Shown piece after piece: positions 1-8,695 of a stretch of 11,302 nucleotides of DNA. The DNA is taken from assembly GCA_020433785.1 (NCBI GenBank), contig JAGRCC010000504.1:1-11302 (forward strand). Reading direction: 5' to 3'. How positions within the stretch are numbered: position 1 is the stretch's first letter; each line of letters opens with the position of its first letter. The position numbers were made by a program, and so were the translations under genes. The notes below the pieces were generated by a model. That model was given only the letters and a program-made list of their open reading frames with translations, had not been told where the DNA came from and did not search any database. The DNA is from Anaerolineae bacterium. Lineage in GTDB: Bacteria > Chloroflexota > Anaerolineae > 4572-78 > J111.

Positions 1-2167
1 GGAGAGCTAATACCATTTCCTGTAATCTCTGAGTAGCATCCTTGGCCGAAATTAAATTGTCTAGAACAAAAAAAATAATAGCAAAAAAAACGATTAAAAC
101 AAGAACTACCATATAGCCAAATAGGGGTACTTCAAAATATAACATTGCCAGTAGGGTGATAATTGATAAAGCCGCAATAACAGAAATACCAATTAATGTT
201 ATTTCTATCTGACTTCTACTGGTACTAACCATAGTTGTTGATGGTTGAGATGGTCTTTCTATCAAGGGAATGAATTTACTATACTGATTTGGATTATTCC
301 CTTTTATATAGGCTAACAGTTCATCGAATTGATCATGTTTCTCACAATAATCGATCAGTAGTTGAATTTTCCATATGTAACTCATCTCCAAGGCAAATTT
401 ATTATATACAGGACGAAAGTTGTCAAAGCAATATATCATCAATTCTTGGTCGTCAAATGTAGCCATCACTAGATCACGGACATCATTTGTGTTGTAGGGC
501 GTTTCATTAGAAACTAATAGGCCAACGCTTGATCTGGTTGAATTAGCCTGGGGGAATTGTGAAGGTGAAGGTGAAATTGACACACCATCTTCCTCGGGTG
601 CCATCCGATTCACCTGATTAGGGTCATCCCAGTTAGGCCATTTATCCAACCGTTCACATAGTAAGGCGGCAGCTAGCAACGCTTGTTCTTTGAGCTTTTC
701 GTCTTCCTGTCTTTGCCAAACATCAAGGGTATGGAAGAGTAAGGCCTGATAATATTCAGGTTTACCATTATTATTAAGTTGCACCAATTCAGAGGCCAAA
801 TAACGCAGCGTCATAATCGTATGGTAGGCCCGCTCAAGACCCTTATCCTCGAAAGGGATATTATCAGGCTTTGTGGCAAGGGTGCTAGGGGCCAGTAATA
901 AATGTTCAAAATGAAATCTATCGGTCAAGCTGGGTAGCGTCGACAGAAAGTTGAATTTGATATCCGTCTCCATTTCGGCAAAATCGTTAAGCGCATGTCC
1001 TTCACCGATGTGAGCGAAGTCAAGCGGCCAATAGTTCCTGTTCTCGATCAGAATATTTTCACCACGCAGATAACTACAACACGGAAACCTCTGCGAAAAG
1101 ACTTCAAAAGCTAATTTGTCTTGCGACGGCAGCCAATCAGCCGGATCGAGAAAATCTCTGTCTAACCCCTCAAAATGCAATTTAGACGGCTGCCCCTCAC
1201 TTTTATCGGATGGAACAACGTCTAAATTGAGCTGGTTAGTATACACCTGGAATAAGTTCATGGGTTCACGTTCAGTTGAACCTGTGATTTTTCGGGGAGT
1301 TTCAAAGAAGATTTTTAGGAGGGCTGTAATTTCCTCTAAATCTTCTTTGATGAAAACGTCTTTGACCGTACGGATATTTTCCAACTCCGTAACGCCACTA
1401 AGCCGACAAAAGAATCCTCCCCACTCCCGTGAGTAAGCGTCCTCCTCAAGATCGACATTACTGCCTATATGACGTTGGAGATGCCGATGAGCGGCCATAT
1501 CGCGTTTTATTTCATCTCGCGTACTGAGTTTAACGACTACTTGTCTCGCCCATTTTTGGCGCCTGGGGCGTACCCGTAGAAGCACGGAGCCGGTTTGTGC
1601 TTTGTCTTTAAGCAGCGGGTAAATGAGGATGCTAGTATCTTCGTGGAACAGATTCTGTAATATATGGCTTACATCGTCCGCTGTTGGGCAAAATGGGTTG
1701 GTAACTTTAGGGTTTGGTAGCTGCGCGGCGATAGTTGCCGGGTCGGGGGAGCCGTTGATCTGTAGAGCTAAATTGGCTGTCATTTCAGAAAATGCTTTGT
1801 CTATTCTGAGGAGCAATTCAGAGTAAGAGGGATTATCACTTTTACTGAAATGGTCAATTGCCCGCTCTCGATGGGCACGACGAATATTTTCAGGGTCATC
1901 GTGCCGACTAAACACGATAAAAGGAATATCATATTTTCGCAAGGCTTTGGCTGGTTCAAGTGGATCGCCAGCCGATCCGGTTTGCCCGGGTTCAACCATG
2001 ATTTCGGTAACGGCCAGATGAATGACCGCCTGCCTCAACCGCTCATCGACCTCGGTTAAATTGACCGCCGTCAAGACACTGTAGCCTTTGTTATTCAAGG
2101 CGGTTACCAGGCGTACCCTAGTTTCTTCTTCTGGATCGACGATTAAAATGCGTTTAGGCATACTCAT
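1..2167 (-). CDS. Degenerate REC / pseudo-phosphotransferase / EAD1-like adaptor / two-TM membrane protein, 3' end beyond window
   Basis: The frame is open for 722 codons from ATG 2167 to the window edge, so the C-terminus is missing. GAGGA lies 8 nt before ATG 2167, which favours it over ATG 2161. Residues 5-127 form a receiver-like domain (start KRILIVD), but the phosphoacceptor position is Glu55 (context AVTEIMV); Ser87 and Lys109 remain. Residues about 165-515 form an aminoglycoside-phosphotransferase/protein-kinase-like fold with the VVVK lysine (K213) and a DFAHIG metal-site motif (D383). The catalytic loop reads CSYLRGENIL where the upstream paralogue has HGDLNSHNIL, so the catalytic Asp is Tyr366. 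A Pro/Ser-rich linker leads to a small helical domain at about 560-632 (VRDLVMATFDDQEL...FDELLAYIKG) resembling the EAD1 adaptor of bacterial conflict systems. Two hydrophobic helices follow at about 655-678 and 681-702, then a polar tail. Domain calls come from motif recognition only. I infer a membrane-anchored, catalytically dead signalling scaffold. It lies 73 bp after its paralogue in one operon. Confidence 0.85.
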   Translation of the reverse strand, partial: MSMPKRILIVDPEEETRVRLVTALNNKGYSVLTAVNLTEVDERLRQAVIHLAVTEIMVEPGQTGSAGDPLEPAKALRKYDIPFIVFSRHDDPENIRRAHRERAIDHFSKSDNPSYSELLLRIDKAFSEMTANLALQINGSPDPATIAAQLPNPKVTNPFCPTADDVSHILQNLFHEDTSILIYPLLKDKAQTGSVLLRVRPRRQKWARQVVVKLSTRDEIKRDMAAHRHLQRHIGSNVDLEEDAYSREWGGFFCRLSGVTELENIRTVKDVFIKEDLEEITALLKIFFETPRKITGSTEREPMNLFQVYTNQLNLDVVPSDKSEGQPSKLHFEGLDRDFLDPADWLPSQDKLAFEVFSQRFPCCSYLRGENILIENRNYWPLDFAHIGEGHALNDFAEMETDIKFNFLSTLPSLTDRFHFEHLLLAPSTLATKPDNIPFEDKGLERAYHTIMTLRYLASELVQLNNNGKPEYYQALLFHTLDVWQRQEDEKLKEQALLAAALLCERLDKWPNWDDPNQVNRMAPEEDGVSISPSPSQFPQANSTRSSVGLLVSNETPYNTNDVRDLVMATFDDQELMIYCFDNFRPVYNKFALEMSYIWKIQLLIDYCEKHDQFDELLAYIKGNNPNQYSKFIPLIERPSQPSTTMVSTSRSQIEITLIGISVIAALSIITLLAMLYFEVPLFGYMVVLVLIVFFAIIFFVLDNLISAKDATQRLQEMVLAL

Positions 2168-2240
2168 AACGCTCGTCCTCAAGTATTTAAGATAGAACTA
2201 AATTTGTCTGGCACTTGATCGACCTAACGAGAATGGCTCC

Positions 2241-3992
2241 CTAATTACGACCGAGAATATTCCCCACAAATTTTTGTATTTTTGCTGAAATCGACGAATC
2301 GTTTGTCTTCGACTTGGATGAAAGGGTAGCCGTAACATTGGTGTCAACCTTCGGCGTCGAGCGCTGCCACGTCGGCCAAGACTCTAAGCGTTCACAAAGA
2401 AGCGCTGCTGAAAGTAGAGCATAACGCTTCTTGGCGTTTGTCATCTCCGTGCCGTCAGAGGCGGTGCAAAGAACATTCAAGGAATAAAATAGTAGGGCTT
2501 GATAATACGCCCGCATATCGGAGCGTAAATTTATCAGATCAGATGCCAGTCGGCGTAAAGACAAAATAATTTGGCCGGCTTTATTTAATCCTTCTCGTTC
2601 AAAGAAGATATTCGAACCATTATCTTCATAAGTTGTCGGCGAGAGAAACCTTATCTCGAATTCAAACAACGCTTCCAGATTATCCAGGGGTAAAAGATTG
2701 AATTTAATATCAGCTTCCAGGCTAATAAAATCGTACAGCGCATGAAACTCTCCCGCCTGGGCAAAATCTGTCAACCAAAAGTTTTTAAATTGATCGACTA
2801 AAATATTGTGACTATTAAGGTCGCCGTGAATTAGCGATGTTCGAGAGAAAACCTCGAACTGTCTGAATTCATTCGTCTCTGATAATATCCAGGTAATGGG
2901 ATTTTTGAACGTTTCGGCTAAACCATCGATGGTTATAACCTCATCGGTCAAAAGTTCCGCCTGAAATGAGGCGGCGGCCGTTTGGAGTTTTTGTGGGGTG
3001 AGGCCAAGCCGTTGCGTATAGCTAGCCGTTAGATCGATCTCTTCTCGGGTGGCATCTGCGAAGATGGGGCCAAAGGTCTGCTCAAAAAATTGCTCTAATA
3101 ATTTTATGACGCTTTCCGCCGAGTCCCACAAGATAATGTCACGTAAGGGTTGCAGTGATACCCGCTCCCCCGCCCCGACGAAGGTATAAATCAATCCGCC
3201 AATTTTGCGAGAGTAAGCCGGCCCTTCTAAAACTGTCAATTGTTGTCCTCCCAAGAAAGGTTTTAAGCGCCGATAATGGTCAAATTCTTCATCAACTTTC
3301 TTCCACCAACCAAATTTCACCACAACAGGCAGACCCGAACCGTATTTGAAATAAGGACGAACTTTTACCAAAACCGTGTTATTTCGGGGTAATACAGGTG
3401 TTTCTGAAGGGTGCTTTGGCTGAAATATAGGTTCGAGTCCAATTTTAATGATACTTCGATCATAAAAAAGCGTTTGCAAAATTTGACGGATATCCTCCTC
3501 GGAAGGACGAGTTTCCTCGTCTGCTTCGGGTATCTGAAGTTTTCCCACTAATTCGATTAGCCTGTCAATGTCTCCCTCAATCTCCAAATCGAAATTGACT
3601 TTGACATCTGACTGAAATAAATGATCAACAGCATTAACTAATTCTCTAGCGGCGTACTGACTATTCTTACTAACCACTTCTTTAGCGCCAACTTCACTAA
3701 ACGCTCGCCGAACATTGTCGCGATCCTCATAAGCGGTATATATCATACATGGCATGTGGGGGGATAATGTTTTGGCCACATCAAAACCGCTGGTGTCAGC
3801 TTGTTTACTGTCATCTTCCAGCCGCAAGTCAACAATACCCAAGTGAAAGATATTTTTATTGAATAAGCTCTGGGCACGCTCAACGCTATTAGCCTTTGAA
3901 ACTTTGTAACCGCGACGGCCTAAGCTTAAGGCCAGTGCATCTAAGACACTGTTGTCATTATCTACCAGTAAAATACTTTTAGCTATTGTCAT
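2241..3992 (-). CDS. Response-regulator receiver fused to an APH/protein-kinase-like phosphotransferase
   Basis: A cytoplasmic protein of 583 aa. Residues 5-128 are a CheY-like receiver with the acidic pair D11/D13, phosphoacceptor D55 (GIVDLRLED), T86 and K109, so all canonical residues are present. After a linker, residues about 170-545 form a phosphotransferase/kinase-like fold: VVVK lysine K226, a candidate alpha-C glutamate at E235/E236, the catalytic loop HGDLNSHNIL (H389, D391, N396), and D409 in LTDFAQAG as second metal ligand. The tail (about 546-583) is polar, Ser/Thr/Lys-rich and ends in a short amphipathic stretch. The substrate is unknown; the fold could phosphorylate a protein, small molecule or nucleotide. 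The start chosen is ATG 3992 because GGAGG sits 8 nt upstream. ATG 4007 would add five residues (MEVKK) but overlaps that Shine-Dalgarno. It lies 41 bp downstream of the histidine-kinase-like gene, its probable phosphodonor. The kinase-like part may match one of the ternary-complex-associated domains described in conflict systems, but this is uncertain. Confidence 0.88.
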   Translation of the reverse strand: MTIAKSILLVDNDNSVLDALALSLGRRGYKVSKANSVERAQSLFNKNIFHLGIVDLRLEDDSKQADTSGFDVAKTLSPHMPCMIYTAYEDRDNVRRAFSEVGAKEVVSKNSQYAARELVNAVDHLFQSDVKVNFDLEIEGDIDRLIELVGKLQIPEADEETRPSEEDIRQILQTLFYDRSIIKIGLEPIFQPKHPSETPVLPRNNTVLVKVRPYFKYGSGLPVVVKFGWWKKVDEEFDHYRRLKPFLGGQQLTVLEGPAYSRKIGGLIYTFVGAGERVSLQPLRDIILWDSAESVIKLLEQFFEQTFGPIFADATREEIDLTASYTQRLGLTPQKLQTAAASFQAELLTDEVITIDGLAETFKNPITWILSETNEFRQFEVFSRTSLIHGDLNSHNILVDQFKNFWLTDFAQAGEFHALYDFISLEADIKFNLLPLDNLEALFEFEIRFLSPTTYEDNGSNIFFEREGLNKAGQIILSLRRLASDLINLRSDMRAYYQALLFYSLNVLCTASDGTEMTNAKKRYALLSAALLCERLESWPTWQRSTPKVDTNVTATLSSKSKTNDSSISAKIQKFVGNILGRN

Positions 3993-4000
3993 TTTTTTGA

Positions 4001-4005
4001 CCTCC
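4001..4005 (-). promoter_or_regulatory. Shine-Dalgarno GGAGG that decides the start of the REC-phosphotransferase gene
   Basis: On the minus strand the sequence reads ATGGAGGTCAAAAAAATGAC. GGAGG is spaced 8 nt from ATG 3992, which is ideal. The upstream ATG at 4007 shares its G with GGAGG and cannot use it. The receiver therefore begins MTIAKSILLVD, the usual short lead-in to the first beta strand. Confidence 0.75.
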
Positions 4006-4033
4006 ATTGTATAAGTAAATTCTATTCACACTT

Positions 4034-5272
4034 CTATGTTGAAGTTACAGTTACTATTGGTAATGTCATCAGCAATTGGGTCCCCCTTCCTTTACCCGTG
4101 TAGACCAGACTTAAGTCTCCATTGTAGCTACAAGCTATGAAGCGCGCGATAAGGACTCCCTTACCGGTGCCCGGTGTTTTATTACCTTGGGGCCGTCTAA
4201 CCGGTCTCTTAAGAAAATTAGCTAAAGCAAAATCAGGAATACCTCGCTGACCGGTATCCGTGATGGTAATATGCGCCAGCTCATCGATTTGCTGCGTAGC
4301 CACGGTTAGTCGTCCCCCCTCCGGCATCGCTTTCAGAGCGTTGTTAACCAATTTCTCCATTGCCACTTGCAGCCATTGGGCAGGAATATTGACTTTAACC
4401 GTGGGGCAGTTCAATTCAAACGCGCACTCTACATCGTGACGATTACTGGCCCAACGGGCGACCATTATTTTTAATTCATCATCGATGCGGGTATCGCCTC
4501 CGGTCTTATCAGGGGCTTCTAAGGGGACCGAACTGGTAAACTGGATGCGACGTAGATCATTAACAACCCGCTCAACACCGTCGAGTGACTCGGCGATCTT
4601 TTTTAGTAAATCGTCTGACACATTGGATGAGGTGATCAAGTTACGCAAATCCTCTGTATAGATATCGATGCTAAACGTTTTTTGATGAACGGTATGCTGC
4701 CATTCGGCCCCAAACAGACCTAACCAGGCCACAGCCTGGCTGGCATATCCAAAATCTCGGGTTTCTTCATACTGGACAGCCGCCAAGATCATTTGGCTCA
4801 ATATCATTACAAATTTTTGGCCGGCCTGATCTAATCCATTTATCTCTTCATGGCCTAAGCTCAAGACTCCGATATAGTGCTCTTGGGTTTGGAATAAAAC
4901 GGCCAGTTCTGCCCCTGTTGGTAATAGAGGCTTGATCTGATCAGGCGGCCGGGTGACATCGCTAATCAACTGATGGCATTTTTCTTGGACTGCCTTTGCT
5001 GCTAAAGTAGAACCGGCTGCCGGAATTTGATCGAGCCGTTCTCTTAGTGGCTCTCGCTGCGTCGATGGGTAAATTGCGACCAGTTTCAAATACTGGCCCT
5101 TAACCAGGTGGATCACTCCGATTTGAGCTTTGGTGGCCATAACAGCTTGCTCTAAAATCTCTTGGAGGACCTTGGCGCTGTCCAGGTCAGGTTCAACAAT
5201 GATGCGGCTGGCCTGATAAAGGGCATCAAGATAGGCTTTGGGGTGATTATTTAAATCTTCACAGTTGTCCAT
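4034..5272 (-). CDS. GAF-domain histidine-kinase-like protein (soluble)
   Basis: A 412-aa protein with no signal peptide or membrane segment. Residues about 15-170 look like a GAF sensor domain (helix YLDALYQASRIIVE, strands IGVIHLVKG and LAVLFQTQ, then YIGVLSLGHE). Residues 175-245 are a helical hairpin with a non-canonical H-box around WQHTVHQK; H193 or H196 is the candidate phospho-histidine. Residues 260-408 are a HATPase_c domain: N-box EKLVNNALKAM (N310/N311), G1 box DTGQRG (D339, G341), G2 box GTGKGVLIARF (G368-G372) and a C-terminal GRGTQLLMTLP strand. A clear F-box is not visible. The likely role is to sense an intracellular cue and phosphorylate the receiver encoded next. It is the first gene of the operon. 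No strong Shine-Dalgarno precedes ATG 5272; only AGG 9 nt upstream is seen. The kinase assignment is firm, but autophosphorylation by this H-box is inference. Confidence 0.87.
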   Translation of the reverse strand: MDNCEDLNNHPKAYLDALYQASRIIVEPDLDSAKVLQEILEQAVMATKAQIGVIHLVKGQYLKLVAIYPSTQREPLRERLDQIPAAGSTLAAKAVQEKCHQLISDVTRPPDQIKPLLPTGAELAVLFQTQEHYIGVLSLGHEEINGLDQAGQKFVMILSQMILAAVQYEETRDFGYASQAVAWLGLFGAEWQHTVHQKTFSIDIYTEDLRNLITSSNVSDDLLKKIAESLDGVERVVNDLRRIQFTSSVPLEAPDKTGGDTRIDDELKIMVARWASNRHDVECAFELNCPTVKVNIPAQWLQVAMEKLVNNALKAMPEGGRLTVATQQIDELAHITITDTGQRGIPDFALANFLKRPVRRPQGNKTPGTGKGVLIARFIACSYNGDLSLVYTGKGRGTQLLMTLPIVTVTST

Positions 5273-5831: not shown

Positions 5832-6119
5832 TTAAGCCAGTTCCAAAAATATATCGGGATGCTGTTCCGCAATCCGTAGTAGAGACTTAGCGGGTCCGCT
5901 GGGTTGGCGGCGGCCTTGTTCCCAATCTTGGATAGTTCGTACGCTAACGCCCATCAGGCTAGCAAAATCTGCTTGGGGTAAATTTAATTTTTGCCGGATT
6001 GCCTTTGCCGAGGAGGGTTCGGAAAGTTCGCGTTGTCGCAGTAATACTTCACCGGCTTTGTGCGCTTTGATTTCCTTTATTCCATCTAAGATTTCCAATC
6101 CGATAGCTCTATTTGTCAT
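5832..6119 (-). CDS. higA: HigA/NadS-type XRE-family antitoxin and autorepressor
   Basis: A 95-aa DNA-binding protein. Residues about 38-78 form an XRE helix-turn-helix: IRQKLNLPQADFASLMGVSV then RTIQDWEQGRR, where QADFASLMG is the first helix of the motif and VRTIQDWEQG the recognition helix, followed by the typical QPSGPAKSLLRIAE helix. The N-terminal 35 residues probably contact the toxin. ATG 6119 is preceded by GAGGA with 8-nt spacing, located inside the 3' end of the ancestral toxin frame, and the two frames overlap by 11 bp (ATGACAAATAG). Such overlap is usual for translationally coupled toxin-antitoxin pairs with the toxin first. It probably binds the inverted repeat at 6431-6451. It is intact although the toxin is interrupted, so it may persist as a solitary regulator or anti-addiction protein. 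The family is certain; the exact subfamily name is less so. Confidence 0.88.
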   Translation of the reverse strand: MTNRAIGLEILDGIKEIKAHKAGEVLLRQRELSEPSSAKAIRQKLNLPQADFASLMGVSVRTIQDWEQGRRQPSGPAKSLLRIAEQHPDIFLELA

Positions 6120-6423
6120 CTTTAAGTTCCTCTGCTATTTTTTTCAATATGTGGCTTGGAATACTTTCCCGCTCATTTTTACCGTAAACCGTTAATAATC
6201 AAATTTCATGGTCGCGACGTTTCAAGTAGTAAATTACCCGAATACCCCCACTTTTTCCTGTACCAGAGGTAGCCCATCGTAATTTCCTAACCCCACCTGT
6301 ACCTCGAATAATATTCCCTTTCTCCGGGTATTTCAGCAAAAAGTGCTGTAAGCTAAGGTATTCATCATCGTTGAGGTAAGTTCCAATCAGTTTTGTGAAA
6401 AGCGAGGTTTCTATGAATACCAT
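6109..6423 (-). pseudogene. higB: HigB2/RelE-type mRNA interferase toxin interrupted by an in-frame TGA
   Basis: The frame from ATG 6423 encodes 74 residues (starting MVFIETSLFTK) with hallmarks of the HigB2/RelE toxin family: DDEYLSLQHFLLKYPEKG, GTGGVRKLRW and GKSGGIRVIYYLKR. It stops at TGA 6199-6201. Past that TGA the same frame continues for 29 codons, LLTVYGKNERESIP followed by a Lys/Glu-rich helix, ending at TAG 6109-6111. That is the expected last strand and helix, which would give a 104-aa protein. The family usually has an aromatic residue at the TGA position, so one TGG-to-TGA or TAT-to-TGA-like change is enough. The truncated product lacks the final beta strand and helix and is probably inactive, unless TGA is read through or the base is a sequencing error. 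The in-frame ATG at 6441 is unlikely to be used because it lies inside the promoter spacer. The antitoxin gene begins within its 3' end. Confidence 0.8.
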
Positions 6424-6429
6424 AAATAA

Positions 6430-6458
6430 ATTATACGGCATTGCCGTATAATTTTCAA
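6430..6458 (-). promoter_or_regulatory. Sigma70-type promoter of the toxin-antitoxin operon, predicted leaderless
   Basis: On the minus strand, -35 TTGAAA (6458-6453) and a consensus -10 TATAAT (6435-6430) are separated by exactly 17 nt. Counting the last base of the -10 as -7 puts +1 at about 6423, the A of the toxin ATG. No Shine-Dalgarno can exist on such a transcript, so initiation would be leaderless. This excludes ATG 6441 as the start. Confidence 0.8.
6431..6451. promoter_or_regulatory. Palindromic operator for antitoxin autorepression
   Basis: Arms TTATACGGCA (6431-6440) and TGCCGTATAA (6442-6451) are perfect 10-bp complements around one central base. The palindrome fills the promoter spacer and overlaps most of the -10. 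A dimer of the XRE antitoxin bound here would block RNA polymerase. The site fits the usual negative autoregulation of such loci; binding is inferred. Confidence 0.82.
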
Positions 6459-6514: not shown

Positions 6515-7792
6515 TTAGGAAATGACATCCAAAAACCGATAATAACTGGCCACCATAGGCAAGAACCAGGCATGACCGTGATAAAAAACCGATGTCTCCG
6601 GCGAAATGCGAGCGAAGGGACTGTTCGATGCCCGCCCTGAAATCAGATCGGCGACCTCTTTACCCAGGTAGCCCGATAGGGCCACACCGTGTCCGGCATA
6701 TCCAAAGGCGTGGTAGATGCCATCGACTTGGCCGATATACGGCATCACATTAAAAGTGAGACCCAACTGCCCGGTCCAAGAGTGAGTGATAGGCACCCCC
6801 TTGAGCTGCGGGAAAATTCGGATCATGGCCTCGCCCAGATTTCTGGCGCTCTCGATCAAATCCAGCCCCGACGAAAGGTTATTGCGACCGCCCATCGACA
6901 TGCGCCCGTCGGGTGTCAGGCGGAAGTAGTTAAGAAACCACTTGGTATCATACATCACCCGGTTTTTGGGGCTAAGTTCGCGCTGCATCGAGGGCGACAG
7001 CGGCGCGGTTGTGATCATGTAGCTACCCACGGTGAAGATGCGGCGCTGAATGGCTTTGACCAGATCGTCGGTGTAGCCGTTGGTGGCAATTAACACCTGG
7101 TCAGCCTTAATCACGCCTCGTCCGGTAGTTACTTGAAAGCCGGCGTTACCGGGGCTGTGGTTGATTTTGAGCGCTTTGGTATTTTCGCAGAGGCATGCCC
7201 CTGCCCGCGTCGCCGCCTGAGCTAGCCCATACACATATTTGGCGGGATGCAGCCCACCCCCCATCCGCTCGAGCAGCCCGCCATAATAGGCATCCGAGCC
7301 GACTTCCTCCCGTAGCCGTTCACGGGGTACGACTTCGACATGGTGAAAATCGAGTTCGCGGGCCAGCCATTCGGCATCTTTAACCATCGCCTCGTAATGA
7401 GCGGGGCGATAAGCCAGAGCCAGCCCGCCCCCGCCGGTGTAATCACAGGTAATTTGTTCGGCGGTCAACGTTTGTTCCAGATGTTCTACTGCCGCAATCG
7501 AGCCGTCCCACAATTGGCGCCCTAACTCTGGCCCATATTTCTGGAAAATTTTTCGGATAGGCAGCTTTAGGCCCGGCGCAACCTGTCCCCCATTTACGGC
7601 GCTGGCTCCATTGCCGATTTGGCCCTGCTCCAGCACCGCCACGCTCAGGCCCTGTTTCGCCAGCTGGAGCGCGGCGTGGAGACCCGTATAACCACCGCCG
7701 ACAATGGCTACATCGACCTCGCGGGGCGGGACGTGGCTCGGCAGCTTAGCCGGGTGTGCAACATCGTCTTTCCAAAAGGGAACCGTTTTCAT
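6515..7792 (-). CDS. FAD-dependent amine oxidoreductase, DAO family, gamma-glutamylputrescine-oxidase-like
   Basis: A 425-aa protein, close to the length of E. coli PuuB (about 426 aa). The N-terminal leader FWKDDVAHP is followed by a Rossmann dinucleotide fold, DVAIVGGGYTGLHAALQLA (G32, G34, G37), with E55 closing the motif (VAVLEQ). NGASAVNGGQVAPG (about 61-74) is the family's conserved FAD-contacting loop. Near the C-terminus, MPYIGQVDGIYHAFGYAGHG followed by VALSGYLGKEVADLISG is the second FAD-binding segment seen in DAO/PuuB proteins. Such enzymes oxidise secondary or N-acylated amines to imine/aldehyde plus H2O2. The true substrate (gamma-glutamylputrescine, sarcosine-like or another amine) cannot be read from sequence, and no other putrescine-pathway genes are in the window. 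ATG 7792 is 6 bp after the fructokinase stop. A GGAG lies 11 nt upstream within the fructokinase 3' end, which suggests coupling. Confidence 0.88.
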   Translation of the reverse strand: MKTVPFWKDDVAHPAKLPSHVPPREVDVAIVGGGYTGLHAALQLAKQGLSVAVLEQGQIGNGASAVNGGQVAPGLKLPIRKIFQKYGPELGRQLWDGSIAAVEHLEQTLTAEQITCDYTGGGGLALAYRPAHYEAMVKDAEWLARELDFHHVEVVPRERLREEVGSDAYYGGLLERMGGGLHPAKYVYGLAQAATRAGACLCENTKALKINHSPGNAGFQVTTGRGVIKADQVLIATNGYTDDLVKAIQRRIFTVGSYMITTAPLSPSMQRELSPKNRVMYDTKWFLNYFRLTPDGRMSMGGRNNLSSGLDLIESARNLGEAMIRIFPQLKGVPITHSWTGQLGLTFNVMPYIGQVDGIYHAFGYAGHGVALSGYLGKEVADLISGRASNSPFARISPETSVFYHGHAWFLPMVASYYRFLDVIS

Positions 7793-7798
7793 CGGCGG

Positions 7799-8695
7799 TT
7801 AGGCTCCGGCCTGTCTTTGAGCCAGGGCAATGGCCCCCAAAATACCGGCTTTGTTGCCCAACCCCGGCGGCACAATGTAGCTGTCTATTTCTTCTAAAAT
7901 TGCCGGCGACTGCACATAGCCATTAAGCAGTTCAATGACCTTCCGGCGCAGCATCGGAAAGACCTGCTTCTGCTCCATCACGCCGCCGCCCATAATAATG
8001 CGCTGCGGCGAGTAGACACAGATCAGATTTTCCAGGCCGACAGCCAGATAGTGAGCTTCCAATTCCCAAGCGGGATGATCTTCGGCTAGCGTTTCGGCCT
8101 TTTGCCCCCACCGTTTCTCGATGGCCGGACCGTTGGCCATGCCCTCAAAACAATGACCGTGGTAGGGACAAAAGCCGCCTGGCGAAGGGTCATCGGCCCG
8201 TGGCGGCAAAAGGAAGTGTCCCATTTCCGGGTGGAGCAGGCCGTGAACCAGTTGGCCGTTGACCACCGCCCCACCGCCGATACCGGTTCCGATAGTCAAG
8301 TAGATAAAATTGTCCAGCCATTGGGCCGCGCCCCAACGGTTCTCACCCAATGCGGCGCCGTTGACATCGGTATCGAAGCCGATCGGCACATTTAACTCGC
8401 GCTGAAGGACGGTCGCAAACTCGGTATTGTGCCAGTGGGGTTTGGGTGTAGTGGTGATGTAGCCCCATGTAGCCGATTTAGGATCGGGATCGACCGGCCC
8501 AAACGAGGCGATACCGATCGCATCGAGCGGCTCATTGGCCGCTTGTTCTTTAAAGTAGGCCACTGCCCGGCCGATGGTTTCCGCCGGCGTGGTGGTTGGA
8601 AATCGAATTTCGTGGCGTAAATCGTCCGGGCCGGTACCTACGGCGCATACAAATTTGGTTCCGCCGGCTTCAATTCCTCCAAAAAGTGTCATCAT
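7799..8695 (-). CDS. ROK-family fructokinase
   Basis: A cytoplasmic sugar kinase (298 aa) that phosphorylates a hexose with ATP. It closely resembles Bacillus YdhR/GmuE fructokinases: the phosphate loop [15 protein letters not shown] at the N-terminus, [24 protein letters not shown] with probable catalytic base D110, [15 protein letters not shown], and a zinc site from H160 in HPEMGH plus C176, H179 and C182 in [10 protein letters not shown]. The C-terminal [14 protein letters not shown] and [16 protein letters not shown] also match. EAGGTK at the N-terminus and the CPYHGxCFEG zinc loop favour fructokinase over glucokinase. ATG 8695 and ATG 8692 are both possible starts. AAGGAG lies 4 nt before the first and 7 nt before the second, so 8692 may be the better one. 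It sits between carB and the oxidoreductase, with 93 bp to carB. Confidence 0.92.

Follow-up and report, generated by a model that had tools for sequence, protein, structure and literature searches.

What role could a receiver domain fused to a phosphotransferase-like kinase play behind a sensor histidine kinase, and why should a second, apparently dead copy of the fusion follow the first? The question is raised by contig JAGRCC010000504.1 of an Anaerolineae bacterium (phylum Chloroflexota; assembly GCA_020433785.1), whose 11,302 bp, hereafter the window, are probably the whole contig. On the minus strand, open reading frame (ORF) calling places a histidine kinase (HK), then RECK, a receiver (REC) joined to an active-looking kinase of the TCAD9 family, and then RECPK, a degenerate paralogue of RECK (Table 1). 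We favor, with a probability of about 0.55, the reading that this is a two-component operon whose output is a kinase and in which RECPK is a membrane scaffold or allosteric partner of RECK.

The longest ORFs are separated by 26 bp (HK–RECK) and 58 bp (RECK–RECPK). The starts of the database relatives P0001 and P0059 favor the internal methionine starts MTIAKS and MSMPKR, which give gaps of 41 and 73 bp; with these starts the gaps claimed in an earlier, sequence-only reading of this DNA are valid, and its co-oriented three-gene layout was correct. The RECPK frame is still open at the contig end. Because the window ends there, RECPK and anything downstream of it are cut off.

Table 1. Positions of the three genes and of their functional features in the window.
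Feature	Position	Strand	Description and basis
HK	4034..5272	-	GAF-HATPase histidine kinase, 412 aa
HK GAF domain	about 4775-5182	-	GAF_2, E 4e-7 (Pfam)
HK His193 codon, predicted phospho-acceptor	4694..4696	-	His in 41/42 aligned operon HKs
HK HATPase domain	about 4055-4375	-	HATPase_c, E 7e-11, above cut-off (Pfam)
RECK	2241..4007	-	588 aa; receiver joined to a TCAD9 (APH-fold) kinase that looks active; Met at 3992 is the likely start
RECK Asp60 codon, predicted phosphorylation site	3828..3830	-	Asp in 47/47 HK-linked REC-TCAD9 genes
RECK HGD (394-396), kinase catalytic loop	2820..2828	-	invariant in 24 rows of alignment A1
RECPK	2..2182	-	degenerate receiver, dead TCAD9, EAD7-like domain and two membrane helices, at least 727 aa; likely start Met at 2167
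RECPK Glu60, replacing phospho-acceptor Asp	2003..2005	-	residue alignment; same in P0059
RECPK CSY (369-371), replacing HGD	1070..1078	-	Lys, Asn and DF of ATP site kept; same in P0059
RECPK EAD7-like helical domain (568-627)	302..481	-	Pfam EAD7 (PF19960), sub-threshold; hhalign
RECPK predicted membrane helices (656-683, 687-707)	62..217	-	AlphaFold2 helices, hydropathy

A histidine kinase and an intact receiver-kinase

The HK had been described as a histidine-kinase-like GAF sensor, and its GAF_2 and HATPase_c domains and conserved His193 bear this out; no HisKA match was returned by Pfam. Its homologues are the multi-GAF HKs that precede REC-TCAD9 genes elsewhere, to whose C-terminal kinase core it corresponds. 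In an alignment of 42 such operon HKs, the single row without histidine at the His193 column is a fragment missing that region (the short ORF of locus L086), and the N, D and G positions of the ATPase core are mostly conserved, in 38 to 42 of the rows. The HK thus has the phospho-acceptor column, the ATPase core and the adjoining receiver protein of a two-component system.

RECK matches Response_reg at 43.5 bits (cut-off 30.2) and TCAD9 (PF19974) at 94.6 bits (cut-off 40), and its catalytic loop also matches the APH and RIO families in Pfam. The receiver is intact, with an N17 D18 acidic pocket, D60, T91 and K114, and the kinase keeps K231, E241, the HGD motif, N401 and D414. Its AlphaFold2 model has a mean predicted local distance difference test score (pLDDT) of 85.4 and a predicted template-modeling score (pTM) of 0.80. 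By Foldseek, the first part of the model corresponds to receivers and the second to the aminoglycoside kinase APH(3')-Ia (4few; E 5.7e-6, template-modeling (TM) score by target 0.56, root-mean-square deviation (rmsd) 7.6), a match at the level of the fold only. With the fold and the catalytic Lys, HGD, Asn and Asp all present, RECK belongs with APH/protein-kinase-like proteins. The APH fold proposed earlier for the phosphotransferase regions is therefore backed by AlphaFold2 and Foldseek for RECK and RECPK alike, and the region falls in a named family, TCAD9. The 50 rows that VIA-align listed for the RECK model are all receivers, and a sequence search of solved structures returned nearly all receivers, so neither informs on the kinase domain.

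The fusion of receiver and APH-type kinase is real, as had been claimed, but it is not the unusual architecture it was taken for, being recurrent in Chloroflexota and usually placed after a GAF histidine kinase. Fifty-seven database proteins are related to RECK at E≤1e-3 (among 8,000 candidates scored), and many genomes encode the fusion, which disposes of the idea that it is unique. The best relative, P0001, is 88% identical and comes from an Anaerolineaceae metagenome-assembled genome (MAG), so the host of the window is probably Anaerolineaceae-like. A viral origin was rejected as well, since a scan of viral contigs with alignment A1 confirmed zero relatives.

Histidine kinases accompany receiver-TCAD9 genes

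Gene neighborhoods were drawn from Chloroflexota: 12 loci of a genome scan, searches at phylum, class and order level, and a REC-EAD7 search. The phylum search found 10 of 400 genomes at E≤1e-25 with three candidates scored per genome, the class search found TCAD9 in 107 of 396 genomes at E≤1e-5 (84 over cut-off) with four candidates scored per genome, and the order search found 5 of 82. Because so few candidates were scored per genome, misses in the phylum and class searches are weak evidence. Reading-frame length was the main criterion in choosing the 38 places taken from the class search, and the counts below accordingly describe a non-random sample. The final tally holds 71 annotated loci, 67 of them with a TCAD9 gene. 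It leaves out L008, L010 and L079 (on the same contigs as L070, L071 and L004) and the short loci L013-L069 and L118-L134, among which L040-L069 are the best TCAD9 matches of the class search; L007 and L101 (5,752 bp each, probably one contig) were missed by the ORF picker, most likely through a longer antisense ORF.

Of the 55 REC-TCAD9 genes (RECK counted, RECPK left out), 47 have a HATPase protein encoded on the same strand no more than three genes upstream; five of the others are at contig edges and three are without one. Receiver-less TCAD9 genes have an HK upstream in 2 of 20 cases (6 at edges, 12 without). Of these two, one is the 331-aa L076_8, which is related to the L072 group, and the other is the rear half of a gene broken in L001; the contrast is, if anything, understated on that account. 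Clustered at 70% identity, the comparison becomes 39 of 46 (4 edges, 3 without) versus 2 of 20 (Fisher p 6.5e-8, edges excluded); an earlier, smaller tally had given 42 of 47. As background, an HK-type neighbor accompanies 49 of the 328 other genes in these loci that encode 200 aa or more (84 at edges). Eight of the upstream proteins were scanned against Pfam, and GAF was found in all eight and HATPase_c in the same ORF in seven; in the L086 HK, a custom model places HATPase_c in the next short ORF. Upstream of the GAF-HK, many operons encode a further HATPase protein (about 630-800 aa); the one scanned (L002:2746-4983) contains S1 RNA-binding, receiver and GAF domains.

The receivers themselves follow the same division. 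Every HK-linked receiver (47/47) has aspartate at the position of Asp60, versus one of three HK-less receivers (p 0.0024), the other two having Ala (L070_11) and Asn (L100_7). In L101, inspected by eye, the REC-TCAD9 likewise has Asn in place of Asp60, and the short upstream stretch lacks an HK. Receiver chemistry thus tracks the presence of an HK, which favors the two-component reading.

The trio had been put forward as a unit, and as such it did not hold: the exact trio was seen in the window only, and what recurs in Chloroflexota is the duo of HK and REC-TCAD9. More than one TCAD9 gene is present in 8 of the 67 loci, the window included, and the nearest case is L110, where an active receiver-less TCAD9-EAD7 and a dead REC-TCAD9 fused to a winged helix flank one histidine kinase. 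The HK and REC-TCAD9 core is real, broader in scope and more clearly defined than the sequence-only reading had it; the dead partner with EAD7-like domain and membrane helices is rarer and less certain.

RECPK is a degenerate paralogue with an EAD7-like domain

RECPK and RECK are 32% identical overall, with 50% identity in the C-terminal helical residues and 24% in the receiver. RECPK matches TCAD9 at 60.2 bits, over the cut-off of 40, and Response_reg at 26.5 bits, under the cut-off. The proposed split into active and dead paralogues stands for the kinases, in which HGD has become CSY, and requires a correction for the receivers, as that of RECPK is degenerate too: its key sites read P-E, E60, S and K, which is not the set of a working receiver. 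At the helix-C site Asp replaces Glu, in P0059 as well. The AlphaFold2 model (pLDDT 75.7) includes a low-confidence helical region at 566-637; 5-methylthioribose kinase and APH(3')-Ia are among the Foldseek matches listed, at E 7e-6 to 2e-4, with target-normalized TM of about 0.4-0.5 and rmsd of about 9-10. The membrane anchor ascribed to this paralogue is supported in the form of two predicted helices, and hydrophobic C-terminal segments recur, in P0059 too, in 21 of 21 database relatives that are 604-675 aa long and fall outside the winged-helix group (P0041-P0057).

The region before the helices had been called an EAD1-type adaptor. An adaptor with a link to the EAD families is what we find, but its identity is different: Pfam gave zero EAD1 matches in RECPK at E≤1, and the segment is EAD7-like, so the EAD1 label was rejected. 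Aligned by hhalign with seven EAD7 sequences, the segment scores a probability of 83% (E 8.6e-6); a custom six-sequence EAD7 model matches RECPK weakly (domain E 0.09), and the precomputed domain list of database entry P0058 includes PF19960. EAD1, EAD6 and EAD7 are considered distantly related by Kaur et al., 2020 (PMC7159879).

EAD7 was found in 116 of 396 genomes of the class at E≤1e-4, in 108 of them over cut-off. In HK operons, L110_9 and L108_12 join EAD7 to a receiver and stand one gene upstream of a REC-TCAD9-winged-helix gene; in L110_6, L137_6, L138_1 and L139_7, EAD7 is joined to a receiver-less TCAD9. A gene joining AAA and winged-helix domains lies within three genes in L137, L138, L139 and L140 (in L140, EAD7 is in the next gene), and no REC-EAD7 fusion was found in L135 and L136 with custom models. 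Because EAD7 joins receivers and TCAD9 elsewhere, RECPK combines parts that circulate in one network. Several of these parts occur together at L110:5910-17493, namely TCAD9-EAD7, a 2,094-aa HK with ten GAF domains (custom model), REC-EAD7, and REC-dead-TCAD9-winged helix.

A proposed mechanism and the evidence against it

In the mechanism that we propose, the GAF domain of the HK would sense a cytoplasmic ligand or state. The HK would then autophosphorylate at His193 and pass the phosphate to Asp60 of RECK, and phosphorylation of the receiver would gate the attached APH-fold TCAD9 kinase. The kinase would in turn phosphorylate a target, the best candidate in relatives being the adjoining AAA/STAND-like, often winged-helix, regulator. 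RECPK, with Glu fixed at its receiver phospho-site and a kinase lacking the catalytic Asp, would be a retained pseudo-enzyme that keeps the helical C-terminal part of the family and adds the EAD7-like domain and the anchor. Its most likely role would be to hold RECK, either as a scaffold in the membrane or as an allosteric partner, and to draw in other proteins tagged with EAD7.

Several observations weigh against parts of this scheme. P0001 reads HGG where RECK has HGD, by true loss or MAG error, so that even RECK's own lineage may manage without kinase activity. L083_8 keeps the receiver Asp with no HK nearby, although its Lys is lost. An active and dead REC-TCAD9 pair is absent from the other seven loci with multiple TCAD9 genes. 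The EAD7 match of RECPK (E 8.7e-6, 25.9 bits) is under the cut-off of 32, and P0059 has membrane helices with no EAD7 found, so EAD7 is not a fixed part of the protein; nor was a second EAD7 copy or partner seen among the Pfam-scanned window proteins, on a contig that ends within RECPK.

A role as the sensing arm of a conflict or cell-death system had been suggested earlier. It may be correct: CHAT and caspase outputs in relatives and the EAD7 links favor it, but an AAA/STAND-like, often winged-helix, regulator is the commonest neighbor in relatives. CHAT is fused to REC-TCAD9 in P0034 and L116_4 and caspase C14 in L077_6, and a REC-CHAT gene adjoins REC-TCAD9 in L071, L097 and L148. His and Cys motifs, which we take to be the CHAT/caspase dyad, are visible in all six. 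The operons of L097 (4439-11703), L148 and L071 consist of a GAF-HK, REC-TCAD9 and the receiver-CHAT protease fusion, and a lone receiver stands between HK and REC-TCAD9 in L097 and L071. By analogy with eukaryotic cell-death signaling, one could go further and suppose that the HK phosphorelay drives RECK while the doubly dead, membrane-tethered, EAD7-tagged RECPK nucleates EAD7-tagged effectors; the same module would switch CHAT or caspase proteases in sister operons, making two-component signaling the sensing arm of a death-like program. We regard this extension as doubtful.

Alternative explanations

The locus could instead belong to a conventional two-component system that controls transcription. 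TCAD9 would then be a protein-interaction module or ligand-sensing fold without enzymatic function, the winged-helix regulator would be the output, and the EAD7-like domain and anchor of RECPK would be incidental. The distribution of catalytic losses is pertinent here. In a tree of 113 TCAD9 domains built with the six catalytic columns excluded (eight near-copies, the two L001 pieces, L005_0, L078_4, L093_1 and L117_6 were left outside), HGD and Lys mark 88 rows as active; another 22, all dead, form one clade (Shimodaira-Hasegawa-like approximate likelihood-ratio support 100), and the remaining three, also dead, lie elsewhere: RECPK with P0059, and P0001 separately. The loss in RECPK is thus an event separate from that clade. 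The 22-row clade is the winged-helix group, PF00486 being listed in 16 of its 17 database members (not in the partial P0052) and a winged helix being found by a custom model in five of its five genome members; all 22 kinases are dead, with intact receivers, and this pattern, the regulator commonly found next to other relatives, and the catalytic Asp lost from P0001 all suit a transcriptional output. A sign test of winged-helix fusion against dead kinase comprises one pair and has no power, because the fusion arose once on the tree.

The neighborhoods of the fused and unfused forms also count in favor of the proposed mechanism. Once 6 edge clusters are set aside, 20 of 32 unfused REC-TCAD9 clusters have a separate gene of one AAA/nSTAND-like family no more than three genes away; 14 of these neighbors show an OmpR-type winged helix and 6 do not. 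Such a gene is equally near 9 of 13 receiver-less TCAD9 clusters (7 with a winged helix, 2 without; 7 edges excluded) and near none of five winged-helix-fused clusters (3 edges excluded). Fused and unfused clusters differ at p 0.014, the family being counted with or without a winged helix. The background in the same loci, 76 of 197 (157 edges excluded), is biased upward because the genes share those loci. Probably the regulator is a separate protein (in trans) in some operons and is built into the fusion (in cis) in others, where the kinase is dead. A purely transcriptional system would nevertheless hardly explain why HGD and the ATP-binding Lys are kept in 88 of the 91 tree rows outside the clade, which is difficult to understand if catalysis is of no use; several relatives have the protease outputs described above, and no winged-helix gene was seen in the window, which ends early. 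We consider this alternative rather unlikely.

Distinctly improbable, in our estimate, is that RECK is a small-molecule phosphotransferase comparable to APH or methylthioribose kinases, which would produce or eliminate a signal or a toxic compound when the HK so commands. The best fold matches of the kinase regions point in that direction (APH(3')-Ia for RECK, 5-methylthioribose kinase and APH(3')-Ia for RECPK), as do excerpts of Kaur et al., 2020 (PMC7159879), which suggest small-molecule substrates for conflict-system APH kinases. The identifiable neighbors, however, are signaling proteins, AAA/STAND-like regulators and proteases, many others being unannotated, so that biosynthetic genes could be among them, and the winged-helix and protease fusions better suit a role in signaling.

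That RECPK is a functionless decaying duplicate, as its degenerate receiver and kinase and a true gene end beyond the contig might suggest, is scarcely credible in view of the open 727-codon frame, the fold that AlphaFold2 still yields, and its one close relative, P0059 (66% identity over 71% of its length, on a separate contig), which has identical replacement motifs and is 71-73% identical across the receiver (73%), catalytic loop and C-terminal helical (71%) parts. A random ORF was held unlikely on the same motifs. The dead motifs shared with P0059 and a frame intact as far as it is seen are best explained if RECPK is a retained pseudo-enzyme.

Relation to known systems

The favored arrangement, a two-component operon with a kinase as output, resembles two-component systems with enzymatic outputs in that an HK with His, N and G boxes lies directly upstream and the receiver Asp, Thr and Lys are intact; it differs in that the output is an APH-fold TCAD9 and a doubly dead REC-TCAD9 copy with EAD7-like and membrane segments follows. 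With the TCAD9 proteins of MoxR-vWA-VMAP systems and CRISPR-linked CARF/SAVED systems it shares TCAD9 itself, over cut-off in RECK and RECPK, whereas here TCAD9 is placed under a receiver and an HK. None of vWA, MoxR, VMAP or CARF is among the Pfam matches of seven window proteins (the eighth is CarB), and relatives were not searched for them. The one informative mention of TCAD9 that was found in print, a figure legend in PMC10910872, names it next to EAD7.

In common with EAD-coupled, NTP-dependent conflict systems, there is an EAD7-like adaptor (RECPK) and, in relatives, CHAT/caspase and STAND-like partners; unlike in those systems, the receivers accompany an HK, and a core component was not seen in the window. 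Excerpts of Kaur et al., 2020 (PMC7159879) give no histidine kinases among vWA-associated effectors, and a passage of an eLife 2021 paper (PMC8195603) describes receivers 'occurring independently of histidine kinases', for which nucleotide-driven switching was predicted. Also comparable are the REC-TCAD9-winged-helix regulators (P0041-P0057, L106, L108, L110, L111, L114 and others), which have a receiver and TCAD9 and, where visible, a GAF-HK upstream, and which differ in their dead kinase, intact receiver and fused winged helix (not listed in P0052). No description of HK-driven REC-TCAD9 operons was found by listing in the openly accessible literature. A PADLOC scan of the three proteins gave no defense-system match of note, only a weak match of the RECK receiver region to SduA (E 2e-4), and a known catalogued anti-phage system was rejected on that basis.

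Other features of the window

Elsewhere in the window, a pair of minus-strand frames at 6199-6441 and 5832-6119 comprises a RelE/HigB-like toxin frame, which is partial, with a weak PF06296 match and an early stop, followed by a NadS/MqsA-like Xre antitoxin that scores under the NCBIfam cut-offs and over the Pfam MqsA cut-off. The metabolic neighbors are CarB, which runs off the contig end (8789-11302), a ROK fructokinase-like gene (7799-8695) and an FAD oxidoreductase (6515-7792). A scan of the window returned no RNA elements at gathering score, and promoter- and terminator-like sites showed no excess over shuffled sequence.

Implications

In this branch of the Chloroflexota, a GAF histidine kinase is linked to a receiver on TCAD9, a domain that belongs to the network of EAD-type conflict systems and has ties to EAD7. 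Standard phosphotransfer assays could test the on-switch of the HK and REC-TCAD9 branch directly. Catalysis was lost separately in the DNA-binding clade, in RECPK and P0059, and perhaps in P0001, and these cases constitute a natural series on the function of bacterial pseudokinases.

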